From: Streptomyces sp. NBC_01264
GTDB lineage: Bacteria; Actinomycetota; Actinomycetes; Streptomycetales; Streptomycetaceae
DNA length: 64,000 bases
Reading direction: 5' to 3'
NCBI RefSeq assembly: GCF_026340675.1
Contig: NZ_JAPEOX010000001.1
Span: forward strand, 3,410,001 to 3,474,000
The translations under genes were made by a program, and so were the position numbers. Below are positions 7,840-53,423 of this stretch, one piece after another; position 1 is the stretch's first letter; the number at the start of each line of letters is the position of its first letter. Under the pieces are notes generated by a model. It was not told where the DNA came from. It searched no databases and was given only the letters and a program-made list of their open reading frames with translations.

Positions 7840-7867
7840 CCCTGGCGGGGGGGTGGGTCGACCCTGC

Positions 7868-7980
7868 GGGGCTGTCCCCTACCCGCCCTTCCACCGTTCC
7901 CCGGGGCTCCGCCCCGGACCCCGCGCCTCAAACGCCGGCGGGGCTGGATTTGCCGCTGCGCGGCAAACTCCAGCCCGCCC
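7868..7980 (+). repeat. Dispersed palindromic Streptomyces repeat, copy 1
   Basis: Between the GAF kinase and the carboxyltransferase. It contains a hairpin CCGGGGC-TCC-GCCCCGG (7901-7917), the core CTCAAACGCCGGCGG, and a long hairpin pairing GGGCTGGATTTGCCGC (7941-7956) with GCGGCAAACTCCAGCCC (7960-7976) with one bulged base. The left part GTCCCCTACCCGCCCTTC recurs in the copy at 47.7 kb (opposite strand), and the core recurs at 50.0 kb. It may also serve as terminator for mbl and the GAF gene. Confidence 0.8.
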
Positions 7981-19498: not shown

Positions 19499-19575
19499 TG
19501 GTGGGGCGGGTGGGACTCGAACCCACGGCCGACGGATTATGAGTCCGCTGCTCTAACCGGCTGAGCTACCGCCCC
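19499..19575 (-). tRNA. tRNA with CAT anticodon (Met elongator, or Ile2)
   Basis: A 74-nt cloverleaf (19502-19575) plus encoded CCA (19499-19501). Acceptor GGGGCGG pairs with CCGCCCC; D-arm AGCTCAGCCGGTTAGAGC, anticodon loop CTCATAA, T-arm GTGGGTTCGAGTCCCAC. The CAT anticodon does not by itself separate elongator Met from lysidine-modified Ile2; it is not initiator-like because the first acceptor pair is formed. The 173 bp upstream of its 3' end (19326-19498) hold no gene I can support. Confidence 0.92.
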
Positions 19576-19721
19576 TTCACGGCGTGGCGCGTACATGTGT
19601 GCGCGCCGTCTGCCGCAGCATAGCCGCTCATACGATCTCCTGCCTCGGATGCCTCGCATGATCGGCTTCGCCTGCCCAGAGAGACCGCACCGGGCCGTGT
19701 CCGGTTGCGCGTGGAGGGCAG

Positions 19722-19752
19722 AAAAAAGAAAAAAGGACCCACCTGGGGTCCT
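19722..19752 (-). terminator. Intrinsic terminator of the tRNA-Asn pair
   Basis: On the minus strand a 7-bp stem AGGACCC/GGGTCCT (19734-19752) with a 5-base loop is followed by an uninterrupted T-rich run (TTTTTTCTTTTTTC). Such a long T-run is rare in this genome and marks a strong factor-independent terminator right after the second tRNA-Asn. Confidence 0.92.
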
Positions 19753-19764
19753 CGTTCCTTCTTG

Positions 19765-19837
19765 CTCCCCCGACTGGACTCGAACCAGTAACCTGCCGAT
19801 TAACAGTCGGCTGCTCTGCCAATTGAGCTACAGGGGA
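19765..19837 (-). tRNA. tRNA-Asn (GTT), copy 2
   Basis: 73 nt, acceptor TCCCCTG with CGGGGGA, D-arm AGCTCAATTGGCAGAGC, anticodon loop CTGTTAA (GTT), T-arm ACTGGTTCGAGTCCAGT, discriminator G; CCA is not encoded. Identical in sequence to the copy at 19843-19915 and 5 bp from it, so the two form one transcript ending at the terminator 19722-19752. Confidence 0.95.
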
Positions 19838-19842
19838 CCGCG

Positions 19843-19915
19843 CTCCCCCGACTGGACTCGAACCAGTAACCTGCCGATTAACAGTCGGCTGCTCTGCCAA
19901 TTGAGCTACAGGGGA
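19843..19915 (-). tRNA. tRNA-Asn (GTT), copy 1
   Basis: 73 nt with the same acceptor, anticodon GTT and T-arm as the adjacent copy; CCA not encoded. First gene of the tandem pair on the minus strand; the promoter should lie in 19916-20061, a gap shared with the divergent YtxH-like gene. Confidence 0.95.
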
Positions 19916-46472: not shown

Positions 46473-47249
46473 TCAGCCCCACTGTTCGAGGCCGAGTTTG
46501 ACCACCAGGGCTCCGACGACCGTCAGGAGGACCCCGCGGACGAAGCCGCTGCCCTTCTTCAGCGCCATCCGGGCGCCGACCATGGCGCCCGCCAGGTTGA
46601 ACACGGCCATCAGGGCGGCCAGTTGCCACAGCACCATGCCCTGGTAGGCGAACATGGCGAGCGCTCCGGCGTTGGTGCACACGTTGACGATCTTGGCCGT
46701 GGCGGAGGCGGTGACCAGGTCGAGGTGGAGGAGGGCCGTCAGCGCCAGAACCAGGAAGGTGCCGGTGCCGGGGCCGATGAGCCCGTCGTAGAAGCCGATG
46801 CCGAGGCCGGCCAGGGCGATGGTGAGCAGGACGCGCCGACGGCTGACGGCGGCCGCCCCGGGAGCGGCGCCGAAGGCGGGCCGGAAGAGGACGAAGGCCG
46901 CGACGACCACCAGGACCACCATGATCAACGGGCGCAGCGCGTCCTTGCTGATGCCGCCAGCCAGGGCGGCCCCGCCCATCGAGCCGACGAGCGCGGCCAG
47001 GCCGATGCGGACGGCGAGCTTCACGTCCACCGGGGTCTTGCGCAGGTACGAGACGGCCGCGCCCGAGGTGCCGACGATGGCCACGGCCTTGTTGGTTCCG
47101 AGGACGGTGGCGGGGTGGGCGTTCGGCAGGCCGAGGAGCAGGGCGGGCAGGAGCAGCAGTCCGCCCCCGCCGACGACGGCGTCGATCCAGCCGGCCGCGG
47201 CGGCGGCCACGCACAGCACGATGATCATGGTTGTCGATATCTCAGGCAC
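46473..47249 (-). CDS. TSUP family transporter (TauE/SafE)
   Basis: 258 residues, about eight membrane segments in two related halves, with the TSUP signatures WIDAVVGGGGLLLLPALLL near the start and GFYDGLIGPGTGTFLVLAL in the second half, and LGTNKAVAIVGTSGAAVSYL. Members export sulfite, sulfoacetate, taurine or related anions. GTG 47249. The next gene upstream on this strand is a small TM protein 36 bp away. In this neighbourhood of nitrate genes a role in sulfite or nitrite handling is imaginable but unsupported. Confidence 0.9.
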   Translation of the reverse strand: MPEISTTMIIVLCVAAAAAGWIDAVVGGGGLLLLPALLLGLPNAHPATVLGTNKAVAIVGTSGAAVSYLRKTPVDVKLAVRIGLAALVGSMGGAALAGGISKDALRPLIMVVLVVVAAFVLFRPAFGAAPGAAAVSRRRVLLTIALAGLGIGFYDGLIGPGTGTFLVLALTALLHLDLVTASATAKIVNVCTNAGALAMFAYQGMVLWQLAALMAVFNLAGAMVGARMALKKGSGFVRGVLLTVVGALVVKLGLEQWG

Positions 47250-47531: not shown

Positions 47532-47750
47532 GGCCAAATCCAGCCCGTCCGGCGTCTGAAGACCGGGGTCCGGGGCGGAGCCGGGGCCGGAGCCGGGGCC
47601 GGGCGCGGCCAAATCCAGCCCGTCCGGCGTTTGAGGACCGGGGTCCGGGGCGGAGCCCCGCAAAACGGGGTCCGGGGCGGAGCCCCGCAAAACGGGGTCC
47701 GGGGCGGAGCCCCGGGGAACGGGCGAAGGGCGGGTAGGGGACGAGCCCCG
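47532..47750 (-). repeat. Dispersed palindromic repeat, tandemly amplified copy
   Basis: Same family as 7868-7980, on the opposite strand. A module with CAAACGCCGGACGGGCTGG (complement of 47612-47630 region) occurs twice about 76 bp apart (near 47532 and 47608), and the unit GGGGTCCGGGGCGGAGCCCC recurs at about 47640-47718 in three tandem 27-bp copies joined by GCAAAA. The outer part CGGGCGAAGGGCGGGTAGGG matches the left arm of copy 1. The gap 47511-47872 otherwise contains nothing I can call a gene. Confidence 0.8.
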
Positions 47751-47872
47751 CGCAGCGGCCAGGGACACGGGCAGGGTGACGTGCAACGGGTGACGCACGG
47801 GGCGGCGACCTCTCGGGGCCTCGGGGGCGGAACGGAACTGGGCACGGAAGCGGCAGCGAACCAGTGGCGGGC

Positions 47873-49174
47873 TCAGAGGCCGAAGCACTCGGCGTGGATC
47901 CGCCCCACCGGCACCCCGGCCCGCACCAGCGCGGCCATCGTCGCGTCCGCCATCCCCGGCGGCCCGCACAGGTACACGTCGTGCTCGGTCAGCTCCGGGA
48001 CCAGCGCGGCCAGCGCCTGCGGGGCCAGCGGGTCGAAGGCGGCGCCCGACGGCCCGAGCAGGTAGTGCAGCCCGGCCCGCCGTTCGGCGGCGATGGCCTC
48101 CAGCTCCTCCCGCAGCACCAGCTGCTCCTCGGCGCCCGCCCGGTAGAGCAGGGTGATGTCCCCCGGCCCGCCGGGCAGGGTCTCGAACAGGGCCCGCATC
48201 GGGGTGATCCCGACCCCGCCGGCGATCAGCAGCACCTTGGTCCGGGTCCGCCGCGCCGCGGTGAGCGCCCCGAAGGGCCCGGTGGCCAGGACCCGCGTGC
48301 CCGGACGCAGCCGGCGGATCCGCCGCGAGTGGCCCCCCAGCGCCTTCACGGTGATGCGCAGGGTGTTCCCGCGGACCGGCGCCGACAGCGAGAACGGCAG
48401 CGCGGTGTGCCACAGCCTGCGCTGGAGGAACCGCCAGCGCAGGAACTGCCCCGGCTCCGCGCGCAGCTCCGCGAGGTGCTCCCCGTAGACGAGGACGGAA
48501 ACGACCCCGGGCCCCTCCACCCGGACCTCGGCGACCCGCAACGCGTGCCGCAGCGCCTGGCGTACGGGGACCACGGCGCGGTACCAGACCAGCAGGACGG
48601 CGACCCCCGCGTGGGCCAGGGCCCAGAACCAGGCGACGGGGCCCAGGTCGGGCCCGGCGAGCTGGTGCCCGAAGGCGAGCGCGGCGGCGAGGTACACCAG
48701 GAGGTGGACCCCCCGCCAGGTTTCGTGGCTGACCCGGCGGCGTACGGAGCGGGCGGAGGTGACGCCGACGGCGACGAGGAGGGCGGTCCCGGCCGTCGCG
48801 GCGGCCAGGGCCGGATAGCCGAGCAGCTCCCGGACCGCCGAGAGCACGTCGACCCCCTGGTGCACGGCGTAGCCGCAGAGCGCGAAGGCCGCGTGCCCGA
48901 AACAGAGCAGCAGGACGTGGCGGCCGCCCAGCGCGTGCCAGCGGGCGAGCCGGGCCGCGCCCACCCCGTGCTCGACGGCGGGGACCCGGGCCATGAGGAA
49001 CAGGAGCACGAGCACCCCGTACCCGGCGAGCAGGCCGGACAGGTGCGCGGCGGTCGCGAACAGCGCGTCGAGCCGGGCCGAGGGCCGCACCTGGGCGGCC
49101 CACAGCAGGGCGACGGTCCCCGCCCCGCCGAGCATCCCGCCCTTGACCCGAACCGCCATGTCTCGCTCTCGCAT
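47873..49174 (-). CDS. Ferric-reductase-like membrane flavoprotein (heme/FAD/NAD(P)H)
   Basis: 433 residues. N-terminal half: about six membrane helices with paired His in RWHALGGRHVLLLCFGHAAF and HETWRGVHLLVYLAAALAFGH, as in ferric reductase/NADPH oxidase b-type heme domains. C-terminal half: ferredoxin-NADP reductase type, FAD motif LPFSLSAPVRGNTL, NAD(P) motif IAGGVGITPMRALFE and CGPPGMADATM. It would move electrons from NAD(P)H across the membrane to an outside acceptor such as Fe(III). ATG 49174 is used; ATG 49159, five codons on, is about equally good. Divergent from the nir operon by 167 bp. Confidence 0.87.
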   Translation of the reverse strand: MRERDMAVRVKGGMLGGAGTVALLWAAQVRPSARLDALFATAAHLSGLLAGYGVLVLLFLMARVPAVEHGVGAARLARWHALGGRHVLLLCFGHAAFALCGYAVHQGVDVLSAVRELLGYPALAAATAGTALLVAVGVTSARSVRRRVSHETWRGVHLLVYLAAALAFGHQLAGPDLGPVAWFWALAHAGVAVLLVWYRAVVPVRQALRHALRVAEVRVEGPGVVSVLVYGEHLAELRAEPGQFLRWRFLQRRLWHTALPFSLSAPVRGNTLRITVKALGGHSRRIRRLRPGTRVLATGPFGALTAARRTRTKVLLIAGGVGITPMRALFETLPGGPGDITLLYRAGAEEQLVLREELEAIAAERRAGLHYLLGPSGAAFDPLAPQALAALVPELTEHDVYLCGPPGMADATMAALVRAGVPVGRIHAECFGL

Positions 49175-49341: not shown

Positions 49342-50847
49342 ATGACCTCGGAACAGCAACGCGTGGTGGTGATCGGCGGCGGCCTGGCCGGCCTGCGGCT
49401 CGCCGCCCGGCTGGGCGGGGACGTCCGCGTCCTCGGTGAGGAGGAGCACGCCCCGTACAACCGGGTCCTCCTCGCGGAGGTCCTGGCCGGCCGGTACGCG
49501 CCGGAGGTGACGGCCCTCCCGGCCCCCGGCCCGGCGCTGCGCCGGGGCGTGCGGGCGGTCCGGATCGACCGGGCGGAGCGGGTGGTCCACTGCGACGACG
49601 GCTCGGTCGAGCGGTACGGCACCCTCGTCCTGGCCACGGGATCGAACCCGGTCCTCCCGCCGCTGCGCGGCCTGTTCGAACCCGAGGGCCGGGAACTCCC
49701 CGCCGGGGTCCACGCGTTCCGCACCATGGACGACTGCCTGGCCCTCTCGGCGGCCGTACGTCCCGGCGTGCGCGCGGTGGTGATCGGCGGCGGCCTCCTC
49801 GGCGTCTCGGCGGCCCGCGCCCTGGCGGAGCGGGGCGCGCAGGTGGTCCTCACCCAACAGGGCGAGCGCCTGATGGAACGCCAACTCGACGCGGAAGCCT
49901 CGGAGCTCCTGAGCATCCACCTCTCGGGCCTGGGCGTGGAAATCCACACGGAATGCCGAGTCCGCGGCCTGTCGACAGCTCCGCTCCCGGGGCTCCGCCC
50001 CGGACCCCGCGCCTCAAACGCCGGCGAGGCTGGAATTGCCCAGTCCACCGGCTCGCACGTGCAGGCCGACGCCAGCCGTAAACCAGCCCCTCCGGCGTTT
50101 GAGGAAAGGGGCACCCCCAGCGGTAGCCGGGGGAGGGTGCGGGCGGAGCCCGGAACGCCCCGCAGGGCCGCCGCTCCCGAAGCCGGACCCGCCCGCGTCC
50201 CTGGCCGGCACCCGGGAGCCAACCCCAGCCAGGGGCCCCGCCGGGTCACCGGCGTCGAGCTGGCCGACGGCTACCGCCTGGACGCCGACCTCGTCGTCCT
50301 CGCCTGCGGCGTGCGCCCCCGCACGGGCCTCGCCCAGGCCGCCGGCCTCGACGTCCGCAAGGGCATCCTCGTCGACGACCGGCTCCGCACCAGCGACCCC
50401 CGCATCCACGCCATCGGCGACTGCGCCGAGCACACGGGCCGCGTCTACGGCCTGGCCGGCCCCGCCCTGGAACAGGCCGAGGCCCTCGCCGGCGTCCTCC
50501 TCGGAACCGGCGAGGGGATCCCCACCGGTGCTGCCTCCGGATACACCGGAACCCACGCGCTGACCCGCCTCACCCTCACCGGCGGCGGCGACCGGCCCCT
50601 CGATCTCGCCGCCTTCGGCGAGACCACCCCGCTCCCCGGCGACGACGTGGTCCGGCTCGCCGACGCCACCCGCCGCACCTACCGCAAGGTCGTCATCCGC
50701 GGCGACCGCCTCGTCGGCGGGGTCCTGTTCGGCGAACTCTCCAGCGTGGGCGCCCTCGCCCGCAGCTGGGAGGACGGCGCCCCCCTCACCGACCAGCACG
50801 GTCCCACCGACCTGCACCACCTGCTCACCGACGACGGAGGCTCCTGA
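49342..50847 (+). CDS. NAD(P)/FAD oxidoreductase of the nitrite reductase operon, with in-frame repeat insertion
   Basis: 501 residues; relatives are about 410. FAD motif RVVVIGGGLAGLRLAARLG (7-25), NAD motif VVIGGGLLGVSAARALAERG (about 148-167) and FAD-binding IHAIGDCAEHTG. It should feed electrons from NAD(P)H to NirB or NasA. Between VEIHTECRVRGLS (about residue 212) and RVTGVELADGYRLDADLVVLACG (about 300) the normal protein has a few residues; here about 90 codons (roughly 49975-50245) derive from a dispersed palindromic repeat, yet the frame stays open and both flanks read on normally. The insertion point is the surface hairpin before the domain's last strands. NirB follows 2 bp later. 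Confidence 0.88.
   Translation: MTSEQQRVVVIGGGLAGLRLAARLGGDVRVLGEEEHAPYNRVLLAEVLAGRYAPEVTALPAPGPALRRGVRAVRIDRAERVVHCDDGSVERYGTLVLATGSNPVLPPLRGLFEPEGRELPAGVHAFRTMDDCLALSAAVRPGVRAVVIGGGLLGVSAARALAERGAQVVLTQQGERLMERQLDAEASELLSIHLSGLGVEIHTECRVRGLSTAPLPGLRPGPRASNAGEAGIAQSTGSHVQADASRKPAPPAFEERGTPSGSRGRVRAEPGTPRRAAAPEAGPARVPGRHPGANPSQGPRRVTGVELADGYRLDADLVVLACGVRPRTGLAQAAGLDVRKGILVDDRLRTSDPRIHAIGDCAEHTGRVYGLAGPALEQAEALAGVLLGTGEGIPTGAASGYTGTHALTRLTLTGGGDRPLDLAAFGETTPLPGDDVVRLADATRRTYRKVVIRGDRLVGGVLFGELSSVGALARSWEDGAPLTDQHGPTDLHHLLTDDGGS
49985..50110 (+). repeat. Dispersed palindromic repeat inside a coding region
   Basis: A forward core (GGGGCTCCGCCCCGGACCCC then CCTCAAACGCCGGCGAGG at 50012-50029) and an inverted core at 50083-50104 (CCAGCCCCTCCGGCGTTTGA) pair over 22 bp with two mismatches, a larger hairpin than either other copy. 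Further repeat-derived sequence (GGCACCCCCAGCGGTAGCCG) runs on to about 50160. Same family as 7868-7980 and 47532-47750. Confidence 0.85.
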
Positions 50848-50849
50848 TC

Positions 50850-53423
50850 ATGGCCGCAGCCACGCCCCATCCCGCCCAGGCCCCGGCCACCGCCCCCGCC
50901 AACGCCCCCGCCCTCGTGCTCATCGGTCACGGCATGGTCGGCCAGCGCTACCTGGAGGCGCTCGCCGAACTCGGCGCCACCGCCACGCACCGGATCACCG
51001 TGCTCTGCGAGGAGCCGCGGCCCGCCTACGACCGCGTGCACCTGACCTCGTACTTCTCCGGCAGCACCCCCGAGGACCTCTCCCTCACCCCCGCCTCCTT
51101 CATGGCGGAGCACGGGATCGCCCTGCACCTCGACGACCCCGCCGAGCGCATCGACCGCGAGGCCCGGACCGTCACCTCCCGCTCGGGGCAGGTGTTCCCG
51201 TACGACGTGCTCGTGCTCGCGACCGGCAGCTACCCCTTCGTGCCGCCCGTCCCCGGCAAGGACGCCCCGGGCTGCTTCGTCTACCGCACCATCGAGGACC
51301 TCCTCGCGATCGAGGAGTACGCCAAGACCCGGACCACGGGCGCCGTGGTCGGCGGCGGCCTGCTCGGGCTGGAGGCCGCCGGCGCGCTCAAGGGCCTCGG
51401 ACTCGCCACCCGCGTCGTGGAGTTCGCGCCCCGGCTGATGCCCGTCCAGGTCGACGAGGGCGGCGGCGCGGCCCTGCTGCGCACCATCGAGGACATGGGA
51501 CTGACCGTCCACACGGGCGTCGGCACCCAGGAGGTCCTCACCGGCACGGACGGCTCGGTCAGCGGCATGAAGCTGTCCGACGGCTCCAGCGTCGACACCG
51601 ACCTGGTCGTCTTCTCGGCCGGTGTCCGCCCCCGCGACCAGCTCGCCCGCGAGAGCGGCCTGGCCATCGGCGAACGCGGCGGCATCTCCGTCGACGCCCG
51701 CTGCCGCACCTCCGACCCGTACGTCTACGCCATCGGCGAGTGCGCGCTGGCCTGCGACGGCCGCGTCTACGGCCTGGTCGCCCCCGGCTACGAGATGGCC
51801 GAGACGGCCGCCGCGGACCTGCTGGGCCGGGAGAAGGAGTTCACCGGCGCCGACCTCTCCACCAAGCTCAAGCTCCTCGGCGTGGACGTGGCCTCCTTCG
51901 GCGACGCCCACGGCGCCACCGCCGGCAGCCTCGACGTCGTCTACTCCGACTCCCGCTCCGGCGTCTACAAGAAGGTGGTCGTCTCCGCCGAAGGCGTCCT
52001 GCTCGGCGGCGTCCTGGTCGGCGACGCCGACTCCTACGGTCTGCTCCGCCCGCTCACCGGCTCCGTACCGCCCGTCACCCCCGAGCAGCTGGTGCTGCCC
52101 GCCGGGGCCGGCGCACCCGTCGCACTCGGCCCGGCCTCGCTCCCGGACGGCGCGGTGATCTGCTCCTGCCACAACGTCACCAAGAAGGCGATCACCGCCC
52201 ACAGCACCGTCCCCGAGGTCAAGAAGTGCACCAAGGCGGGCACCGGCTGCGGGAGCTGCCTCAAGGTGATCGGCCAGCTCATGCCGCCCGCCGCCGACAA
52301 GGGGCTCTGCGACTGCTTCCCCTACACCCGCGCCGAGCTCTACGAGATCGTCCGCACCCTGCGCGTGACCTCGTACGAGAAGCTCCTCGACAGCCACGGC
52401 CGCGAGGAGGCCCGCGGCGGTGAGGGCTGCGAGGTCTGCAAGCCCACGGTCGGTTCGATCATCGCCTCGCTCGCCCCCACTCTCGGCGCGAGCGGCTACG
52501 TCCTGGACGGGGAGCAGGCCGCCCTCCAGGACACCAACGACCACTTCCTCGCCAACCTGCAGCGCAACGGCTCGTACTCGGTGGTCCCGCGCATCCCCGG
52601 CGGTGAGATCACCCCCGACAAGCTCATCGTGATCGGCGAGGTGGCCCGCGACTTCGGGCTCTACACGAAGATCACCGGCGGGCAGCGCATCGACCTCTTC
52701 GGCGCCGCCATCGACCAGCTCCCCCTCATCTGGGCCCGGCTCGTCGAGGCCGGTTTCGAGTCCGGGCACGCGTACGGCAAGGCCCTGCGGACGGTGAAGT
52801 CCTGCGTGGGCCAGACCTGGTGCCGCTACGGGGTCCAGGACTCCGTACGGATGGCCATCGACCTGGAGCTGCGCTACCGGGGCCTGCGCGCCCCGCACAA
52901 GCTCAAGTCGGCGGTCTCCGGCTGCGCCCGCGAGTGCGCGGAGGCGCAGAGCAAGGACTTCGGGATCATCGCGACGGCGAGCGGCTGGAACCTCTACGTC
53001 GGCGGCAACGGCGGGGCCACCCCGCGCCACGCCGACCTGCTCGCCCAGGACCTGTCCGACGCCGAACTGGTCCGGCTCATCGACCGGTTCCTGATGTTCT
53101 ACATCCGCACCGCCGACCGGCTGGAGCGGACCTCCACCTGGCTGGACCGGCTGGAGGGCGGCCTCGACCACCTGCGGGACGTGATCGTGCGCGACTCCCT
53201 CGGGCTGTGCGCGGAGCTGGAGTCGCTGATGGCCGACCACGTGGCGCACTACCGCGACGAATGGGCCGAGACCCTGGACGACCCGGAGCGGCTGCGCCGG
53301 TTCGTGTCCTTCGTCAACGCGCCGGGCGCACCCGACCCGAGCGTGAAGTTCGTCCCCGAACGCGGCCAGGTCAAGCCCGACCTGACCGTCCTGACCCTGG
53401 AGCCCCTGGGAGGCACCCGATGA
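50850..53423 (+). CDS. nirB: Assimilatory nitrite reductase large subunit
   Basis: 857 residues. Reduces nitrite to ammonium with NAD(P)H in the cytoplasm. Domains: FAD/NAD reductase (LVLIGHGMVGQRYLEAL, GAVVGGGLLGLEAAGALKG), BFD-like [2Fe-2S] site CSCHNVTKKAI with CTKAGTGCGSC, and sulfite/nitrite reductase repeat ending with the sirohaem-[4Fe-4S] ligands CVGQTWCRYG and CARECAEA (C-x5-C and C-x3-C). An extra CDCFPYTRAELYEI and GCEVCKPTVGS follow the BFD site. ATG 50850 has GGAGG eight bases upstream, inside the end of the preceding gene. The stop overlaps nirD (ATGA). Confidence 0.97.
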   Translation: MAAATPHPAQAPATAPANAPALVLIGHGMVGQRYLEALAELGATATHRITVLCEEPRPAYDRVHLTSYFSGSTPEDLSLTPASFMAEHGIALHLDDPAERIDREARTVTSRSGQVFPYDVLVLATGSYPFVPPVPGKDAPGCFVYRTIEDLLAIEEYAKTRTTGAVVGGGLLGLEAAGALKGLGLATRVVEFAPRLMPVQVDEGGGAALLRTIEDMGLTVHTGVGTQEVLTGTDGSVSGMKLSDGSSVDTDLVVFSAGVRPRDQLARESGLAIGERGGISVDARCRTSDPYVYAIGECALACDGRVYGLVAPGYEMAETAAADLLGREKEFTGADLSTKLKLLGVDVASFGDAHGATAGSLDVVYSDSRSGVYKKVVVSAEGVLLGGVLVGDADSYGLLRPLTGSVPPVTPEQLVLPAGAGAPVALGPASLPDGAVICSCHNVTKKAITAHSTVPEVKKCTKAGTGCGSCLKVIGQLMPPAADKGLCDCFPYTRAELYEIVRTLRVTSYEKLLDSHGREEARGGEGCEVCKPTVGSIIASLAPTLGASGYVLDGEQAALQDTNDHFLANLQRNGSYSVVPRIPGGEITPDKLIVIGEVARDFGLYTKITGGQRIDLFGAAIDQLPLIWARLVEAGFESGHAYGKALRTVKSCVGQTWCRYGVQDSVRMAIDLELRYRGLRAPHKLKSAVSGCARECAEAQSKDFGIIATASGWNLYVGGNGGATPRHADLLAQDLSDAELVRLIDRFLMFYIRTADRLERTSTWLDRLEGGLDHLRDVIVRDSLGLCAELESLMADHVAHYRDEWAETLDDPERLRRFVSFVNAPGAPDPSVKFVPERGQVKPDLTVLTLEPLGGTR

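Follow-up and report, generated by a model that had tools for sequence, protein, structure and literature searches.

As passages of PMC10969869 describe them, the Rickettsia palindromic elements (RPEs) are dispersed palindromic repeats that occur in frame in unrelated genes and are apparently tolerated there, and the same passages present miniature inverted-repeat transposable elements (MITEs) with open reading frames (ORFs) as short, non-autonomous, palindromic and able to fuse in frame. The repetitive extragenic palindromes (REPs) of the GTAG/CGTC type, according to parts of PMC3733652, measure 20-40 bp and also lie within ORFs of known proteins including RNA helicases, where they are thought to be neutral in flexible regions; about the same site was used once, in recB of two Xanthomonas species, and the GTAG type is often found near genes for REP-associated tyrosine transposases (RAYT). 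Here we analyzed a 64,000-nucleotide stretch of Streptomyces sp. NBC_01264 (the window; contig NZ_JAPEOX010000001.1, positions 3,410,001 to 3,474,000, forward strand), in which a copy of a dispersed palindromic element lies in frame within a FAD/NAD(P) oxidoreductase gene of the nir operon.

Like the RPEs, the Streptomyces element is dispersed and palindromic, is both intergenic and intragenic, and sits in frame inside unrelated conserved ORFs (five families among 82 sites), which supports in kind the resemblance proposed in the initial annotation of this DNA. Unlike the RPEs, it has no single conserved peptide, being read in four frames in the nir homologues and in several across genes; its host is a GC-rich actinobacterium, and the same slots are filled differently, with other palindromes nested within. 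It resembles the REPs in its position inside ORFs of known proteins, but it is longer than 20-40 bp and its genome has no match to PF01797; on reading, the consensus carries no obvious GTAG/CGTC tag, and the element ends are not fixed. With the MITEs it shares being short, non-autonomous, palindromic and in frame, in contrast to which it has no identified terminal duplication or parent transposon (a parent was sought by PF01797 only). No Streptomyces account of the repeat was among the matches listed when the open-licence literature was searched by words and by the letters of the repeat, sequence matches being judged by title, and the word Streptomyces does not occur in the main text of PMC3733652. 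The Streptomyces passages of PMC1525189 (targets of IS117) and PMC1590033 (a reference) do not bear on the repeat. In-frame palindromic elements, best known from Rickettsia and with REP examples in several other bacteria, are therefore known already as a kind; what looks new is the host, the free choice of frame, the repeated filling of slots and the nesting.

We consider it probable, at roughly four chances in five, that a dispersed palindromic element gains entry to protein loops that tolerate it, or is copied into them, and persists there as a spacer. A GC-rich palindromic element of ~170-300 nt, dispersed in many Streptomyces, would have entered a five-residue beta-hairpin turn in the NAD-binding domain of the nir-operon oxidoreductase. 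Given a length divisible by three, a copy would then be translated through any of five mostly stop-free frames, and its product would be a spacer rich in Pro, Ala, Gly and Arg, probably disordered and tolerated by the fold. We infer that each gene has seen movement or copying of the element from site to site more than once, that the peptide of the spacer serves no function, that the enzyme remains active, and that the spacer, once in place, turns over through in-frame deletions, duplications and nested insertions. The element itself would be non-autonomous repeat DNA whose genic copies persist only in spacer-tolerant loops.

The host gene (49342..50847, plus strand) is an open ORF of 501 codons, and its product, a NirB1-like pyridine-nucleotide oxidoreductase of 501 aa, matches Pfam PF07992 (Pyr_redox_2; 3.5e-52) and PF18267. 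Homologues bear the names 'NirB1' (P0004) and 'assimilatory nitrate reductase electron transfer subunit' (P0069), and both flanks of the protein align with homologues along their length, in one frame, on either side of an expanded linker of 270 nt (49972..50241, plus strand) that runs from VRGL to RVTG. A profile built from 24 aligned two-core copies of the same genome, the nir copy excluded, matched the insert with nhmmer in both orientations (E 9.5e-26 on the plus strand, 49985-50179; E 4e-30 on the minus strand, 50153-49980), confirming that a repeat lies in frame in this gene. The repeat had been said to supply about 90 codons; the linker indeed comprises 90, but the element, two-armed with a central loop, is recognized only in 49985..50179, and the profile found no recognizable element sequence in the final ~60 nt. 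Its left arm (50005..50033, plus strand) contains the core CTCAAACGCCGG at 50013-50024 and is translated ...RASNAGEAG, and its right arm (50083..50111, minus strand) contains the inverted core at 50092-50103 and is translated PAPPAFEE. The large hairpin that had been described was also recovered, the arms being 83% complementary and the RNA fold of 49975-50160 (-109.2 kcal/mol, z -4.1) being equalled by none of 200 shuffles. Rfam gave nothing for the insert up to E 1.

Within the insert, a second palindrome, GGGGCACCCCCAGCGGTAGCCGGGGGAGG (50107..50139, plus strand, approximate limits), is nested and codes for GTPSGSRGR. These nine codons are missing from Streptomyces sp. AP-93 (L101), whose linker is otherwise similar and whose gene has a dS of 0.17 to the window gene. 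The second palindrome is rare in its own genome, the pattern CCCAGCGGTAGCYGGG occurring at five exact and six one-mismatch places (control, 2). The frame is open across the stop-free insert, in which GC content by codon position is flat (0.79/0.76/0.78, measured on 49975-50241), compared with 0.84/0.50/0.93 and 0.80/0.54/0.95 in the two flanks; by its composition, the insert looks like translated non-coding DNA.

Within the window alone, the core count is not significant (4 matches with at most two mismatches, 1.7 expected, as many in 9 of 100 shuffles). The dispersal of the repeat is evident genome-wide, as had been proposed: the core 12-mer CTCAAACGCCGG occurs 216 times in the 10.67-Mb genome (111 forward and 105 reverse), against 4 for the reversed control (0 and 4). 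With the whole insert as query, blastn found at least 83 places at E<=1e-3 in the same genome, the insert among them, scoring having covered 40 of 428 candidates. Two further copies that had been placed at 7.9 and 47.6 kb of the window are real. The first (7860..7975, plus strand, approximate limits; core 7927 +) is a single-core element judged intergenic by reading, while the second (47534..47760, minus strand, approximate limits; core 47624 -) consists of partly tandem half-elements between the ORF 46473-47249 and the ferric-reductase gene 47873-49174, and it includes three head-to-tail copies of GGGGTCCGGGGCGGAGCCCC. The consensus forms an extended, imperfect palindrome that runs from outer to inner through CCCCTACCCGCCCTTCCACCGTTCC, a small hairpin CCCGGGCTCCGCCCGG, a second hairpin GGGGCTCCGCCCC and ACCCCGCTCCTCAAACGCCGGAGGGGCTGG to a variable loop, followed by a rough mirror image. 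Of the six frames, one is closed by TGA in all 125 distinct half-elements of 87 nt, and each of the other five is open in 86 to 118 of them; 24 two-core elements have 71 of 144 frames open end to end. Since five of six frames are mostly stop-free, readable entry needs little beyond a length divisible by three. Tandem arrays of the core with regular spacing were seen at G187:C3:588-1015 and G115:C1:252781-252894 (138-140 nt and 34 nt, respectively), so that the element or its half also makes arrays.

Pairwise substitution rates indicate that the oxidoreductase gene is under purifying selection and that the linker is looser. Linker dN/dS exceeded that of the flanks in six of six pairs, a rough comparison with few linker differences. 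For L031-L101, dN and dS were 0.043 and 0.17 in the flanks and 0.135 and 0.236 in the linker (ratios 0.25 vs 0.57; 36 linker differences), and the linker and flank ratios were 0.49 vs 0.24 for L031-L091 (27 differences), 0.46 vs 0.23 for L094-L098 (38) and 0.53 vs 0.15 for L107-L117 (10). In the AlphaFold model of the window protein, strands 207-214 and 300-307 lie around a coil, and in that of the insert-free homologue P0077, strands 211-217 and 223-229 are separated by a five-residue turn (local pLDDT 77-84 by tens). Because the strands of P0077 are joined by this turn and those of the window protein by coil, the models indicate that the element replaced a beta-hairpin turn of the NAD domain. 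The earlier proposal that a hairpin of the Rossmann domain tolerates the repeat is supported as to the predicted position, and the enzyme probably still works.

The linker was then compared across the genus. In a survey of 392 genomes, a homologue reaching E<=1e-60 was present in 305, and lengths of 411-420 aa were frequent among the best ORFs listed. Of 110 loci given to the linker script, 108 were parsed (L120 and L144 were without the right flank); they are best matches rather than a random draw, and some species appear twice via two collections. All 108 nir linkers are a multiple of three in length and free of stops; the linker is exactly 15 nt in 56 of them, e.g. RCVGG, and the profile recognized the element (>=15 bits) in eight. 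Longer linkers without the element include tandem-repeat expansions (L099, L112, L116 and L137). A clean insertion had been expected from alignment with orthologues: the element is indeed absent from many Streptomyces, but clean borders were not found, the linkers varying from 8 to 167 residues among the best 120 of 5745 protein homologues, and some having lost arms or carrying additional ones, reading in other frames or containing nested palindromes. The same 90 residues were looked for as a conserved domain in distant Streptomyces and were not found.

A core peptide is present in 79 of these best 120 homologues and absent from 41, and it appears in four frames (SNAG, QTPxGL, AFE and LRRxRSGG). 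Classified by peptide patterns of our own definition, 34 have SNAG and AFE, 33 AFE alone, 4 SNAG alone, 4 QTPxGL, 3 LRRxRSGG and 1 SNAG with LRRxRSGG. The use of four frames and of both arms argues against a peptide function. Other palindromes are nested in the core, with SPSYRWEVPP in P0054, P0090 and P0091 (nir) and in P0129 (HrpB), and a GGPPGRSLGE-like peptide in P0003 (nir) and in P0157 and P0167 (HrpB). Since the linkers span 8-167 residues with varied arms, frames and nesting, the nir linker is, as far as sequence comparison can tell, a slot with turnover and not one clean, sharp-bordered insertion. A third palindrome (GGGGGTACCCCCGGACGGAGTCTGGGGGA type) stands at nearly one point of the core in three unrelated genes, namely acyl-CoA carboxylase alpha subunit (AccA) L262, L270 and L273, nir P0003, and HrpB P0157 and P0167; its nesting is seen at the DNA level in the three AccA loci, hinting that it has a preferred target within the core.

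A search of the genome for further in-frame copies was likewise productive. The census covered 82 distinct core sites, namely those heading the hit list, the best matches by blastn and those in 40 fetched stretches, a sample biased toward contig 1 and better copies. With flanks starting 90 nt out, 92 spanning ORFs were listed, and 87 without coding signal on both sides were set aside. Five of the 82 sites, nir included, lie inside genes, coding signal in one and the same open frame flanking them on either side and each flank scoring 0.29 or more (next best pair, 0.06/0.03). They are the nir gene and the genes for AccA (L194), CobB (L176), a PRTase_2/TRSP phosphoribosyltransferase (L188) and the HrpB helicase (L054). 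The inserts in L176, L188 and L054 fall between Pfam matches, and those in nir and AccA within one. A cruder scan gave no sign, at any sampled site, of a gene disrupted by the element.

Among relatives, the element (>=15 bits) was found in AccA in 14 of 49 parsed loci (of 50), with L273 just below at 14.0 bits, in CobB in 6 of 15, read in the AFE frame, the QTPxGL frame or both, and in the phosphoribosyltransferase in 3 of 17; as background, 9 of 945 random control pieces from the same loci reach 15 bits, these pieces being unfiltered and possibly overlapping true copies. Linker searches at the protein level gave 51 proteins for HrpB (49 HrpB with varied versions, one nir and one NuoF-like protein, P0169) and 31 for CobB (27 CobB and four ABC ATPases, P0183, P0184, P0186 and P0200); NuoF, the ABC ATPases and HrpB outside the window genome are known here from peptides only. 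Tandem peptide expansion, e.g. DQPLQGAT repeats, was observed in the AccA loop of L217 (G022) and in the nir linker of L099, L112 and L137, and the AccA loop of L230 (G002) is expanded by a low-complexity stretch of 171 residues; the loops that take palindromes seem to be permissive slots generally. In L218 (AccA of G018), the second palindrome CACCTCCCAGCGGTAGCTGGGGGAGG stands alone and in frame, the first element being absent from that loop copy.

Core counts range from 0 to 368 per genome across the 392 genomes, 296 of which have at least one exact match, though single matches may be chance. In a set of ten clade genomes, G071 and three outgroups, with relatedness uncorrected, the AccA element is found in 7/7 genomes with at least 23 core sites vs 0/7 with 22 or fewer, and the CobB element in 5/7 vs 0/7 at the same split. 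Over all 38 genomes with both measured, which leaves out the window's own genome, L221 (unparsed) and G392 (uncounted), the AccA figures are 7/11 and 0/27; the four exceptions, G001, G002, G011 and G022, all lie outside the clade, and G002 holds 193 sites. The neat link between copy number and invasion seen in the 14 genomes failed on recount over all measured genomes and genes.

Several observations weigh against entry of the element into tolerant loops as we propose it. The frame classes depend on the patterns chosen for them. Linker dN/dS is 0.28, hardly above the 0.22 of the flanks, in L095-L096 and L097-L098 (10 and 12 linker differences), and the protein models are poor for the window protein (mean pLDDT 49) and mediocre overall for P0077 (mean pLDDT 56). 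In the copy-number comparison, the nir element was found by profile in none of ten clade genomes (L061-L070), some with 62-176 core sites, and the phosphoribosyltransferase element likewise in none of ten (L275-L279 and L283-L287; nine shared with the nir set), so that copy number alone is no predictor of invasion. The means of movement count here too. A Y1/RAYT transposase, sought as PF01797 only, has no match in the own genome (5 of 14 control genomes match), and a RAYT as the mover is therefore unlikely; transposition may instead depend on another enzyme. The AccA comparison, made among relatives too diverged, allowed no exact border or target-site duplication to be read. As to the earlier suggestion that the repeat can move, the movement is deduced from comparison only.

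The missing Y1_Tnp match and target duplication would also suit ectopic gene conversion or template switching between repeats, instead of transposition, as the process that seeds and rewrites linkers wherever similar GC-rich scrap exists. Composite and partial copies (single arms, repeated arms and palindromes nested at the core) are consistent with such a process, which leaves the first entry into a dissimilar 15-nt turn unexplained unless microhomology suffices, and we regard it as a serious contender that is nevertheless rather doubtful.

Part of the variation could also stem from a single ancestral insertion, after which there were losses and indels that changed the frame. In the strict form of this explanation, the clade would have inherited a single insertion in each gene, since worn down by in-frame deletions, by duplications and by indels that compensate the frame, while movement has ceased; we find it slightly more doubtful still. 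It is favored by the common order of SNAG arm then AFE arm in the 34 nir homologues with both, by the phosphoribosyltransferase, which has the left arm in the window genome (RRGSAPDPAPQTPEGLI) and the right arm in the relatives TBY4 and AP-93 (QNQPLRRLSSG), as if halves of the element had been lost differently, and by the failure of copy number to predict the nir and phosphoribosyltransferase elements. Conversely, AccA has two distinct sites (before TELLL in L194 and L265 and after it in 11 of the 14, L270 being assigned to neither), and within the clade and three outgroups its element follows the count of core sites (over all 38 genomes, 7/11 and 0/27), kinship uncorrected. Linkers in the QTPxGL frame (4/120) require two changes on the tree and those in the LRRxRSGG frame (4/120) four, likewise at odds with a single insertion. 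On a quick flank tree, presence of the core peptide changes at least 16 times, nine of these forced by starred branches, compared with 34 for shuffled labels, so that it is inherited in part and turns over in part; such counts do not separate gain from loss, which also weakens them as support for repeated entry.

Retention of the hairpin for an operon function at the RNA or DNA level (pausing, polarity or mRNA stability) appears very improbable. The fold is very stable and the gene lies directly upstream of nirB, but many genic copies are single-armed (AccA; five of six CobB copies) and thus without this hairpin, which argues against a hairpin function; copy-free orthologues are common, and the Rfam search found no match. 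An artefact of misassembly, a wrong gene model or a pseudogene is hardly credible: GC-rich repeats are hard to assemble and the insert has no coding signature, but in-frame variants occur in independent assemblies of related strains, and the flanks are under purifying selection and align with homologues on both sides in one frame.

Beyond the entry of palindromic elements into tolerant loops in general, we put forward, tentatively and as somewhat short of an even chance, that in Streptomyces of the virginiae/avidinii/lavendulae group a palindromic family that has been active recently and does not depend on a RAYT goes on rewriting linkers; the same small set of loop slots in unrelated enzymes would be refilled in whichever frame is readable, with shorter palindromes preferentially entering the first core.

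As for the surroundings of the insert, the next gene downstream of the oxidoreductase gene is a nirB-like nitrite reductase gene (50850..53423, plus strand; NIR_SIR, Fer2_BFD and Pyr_redox_2), and an Rfam scan of the window placed three tRNA genes at 19502..19915 (minus strand).

Such repeats may remodel proteins in these bacteria. Hundreds of species have been sequenced in this free-living, GC-rich genus, and the process is visible at many stages in the same linkers, which makes measurable the way in which non-coding repeat DNA turns into protein, the loops that accept it and the importance, if any, of its peptide. The linkers provide a natural test of the loop length that these enzymes tolerate, and those who annotate genes or build models should not take such linkers for conserved domains.
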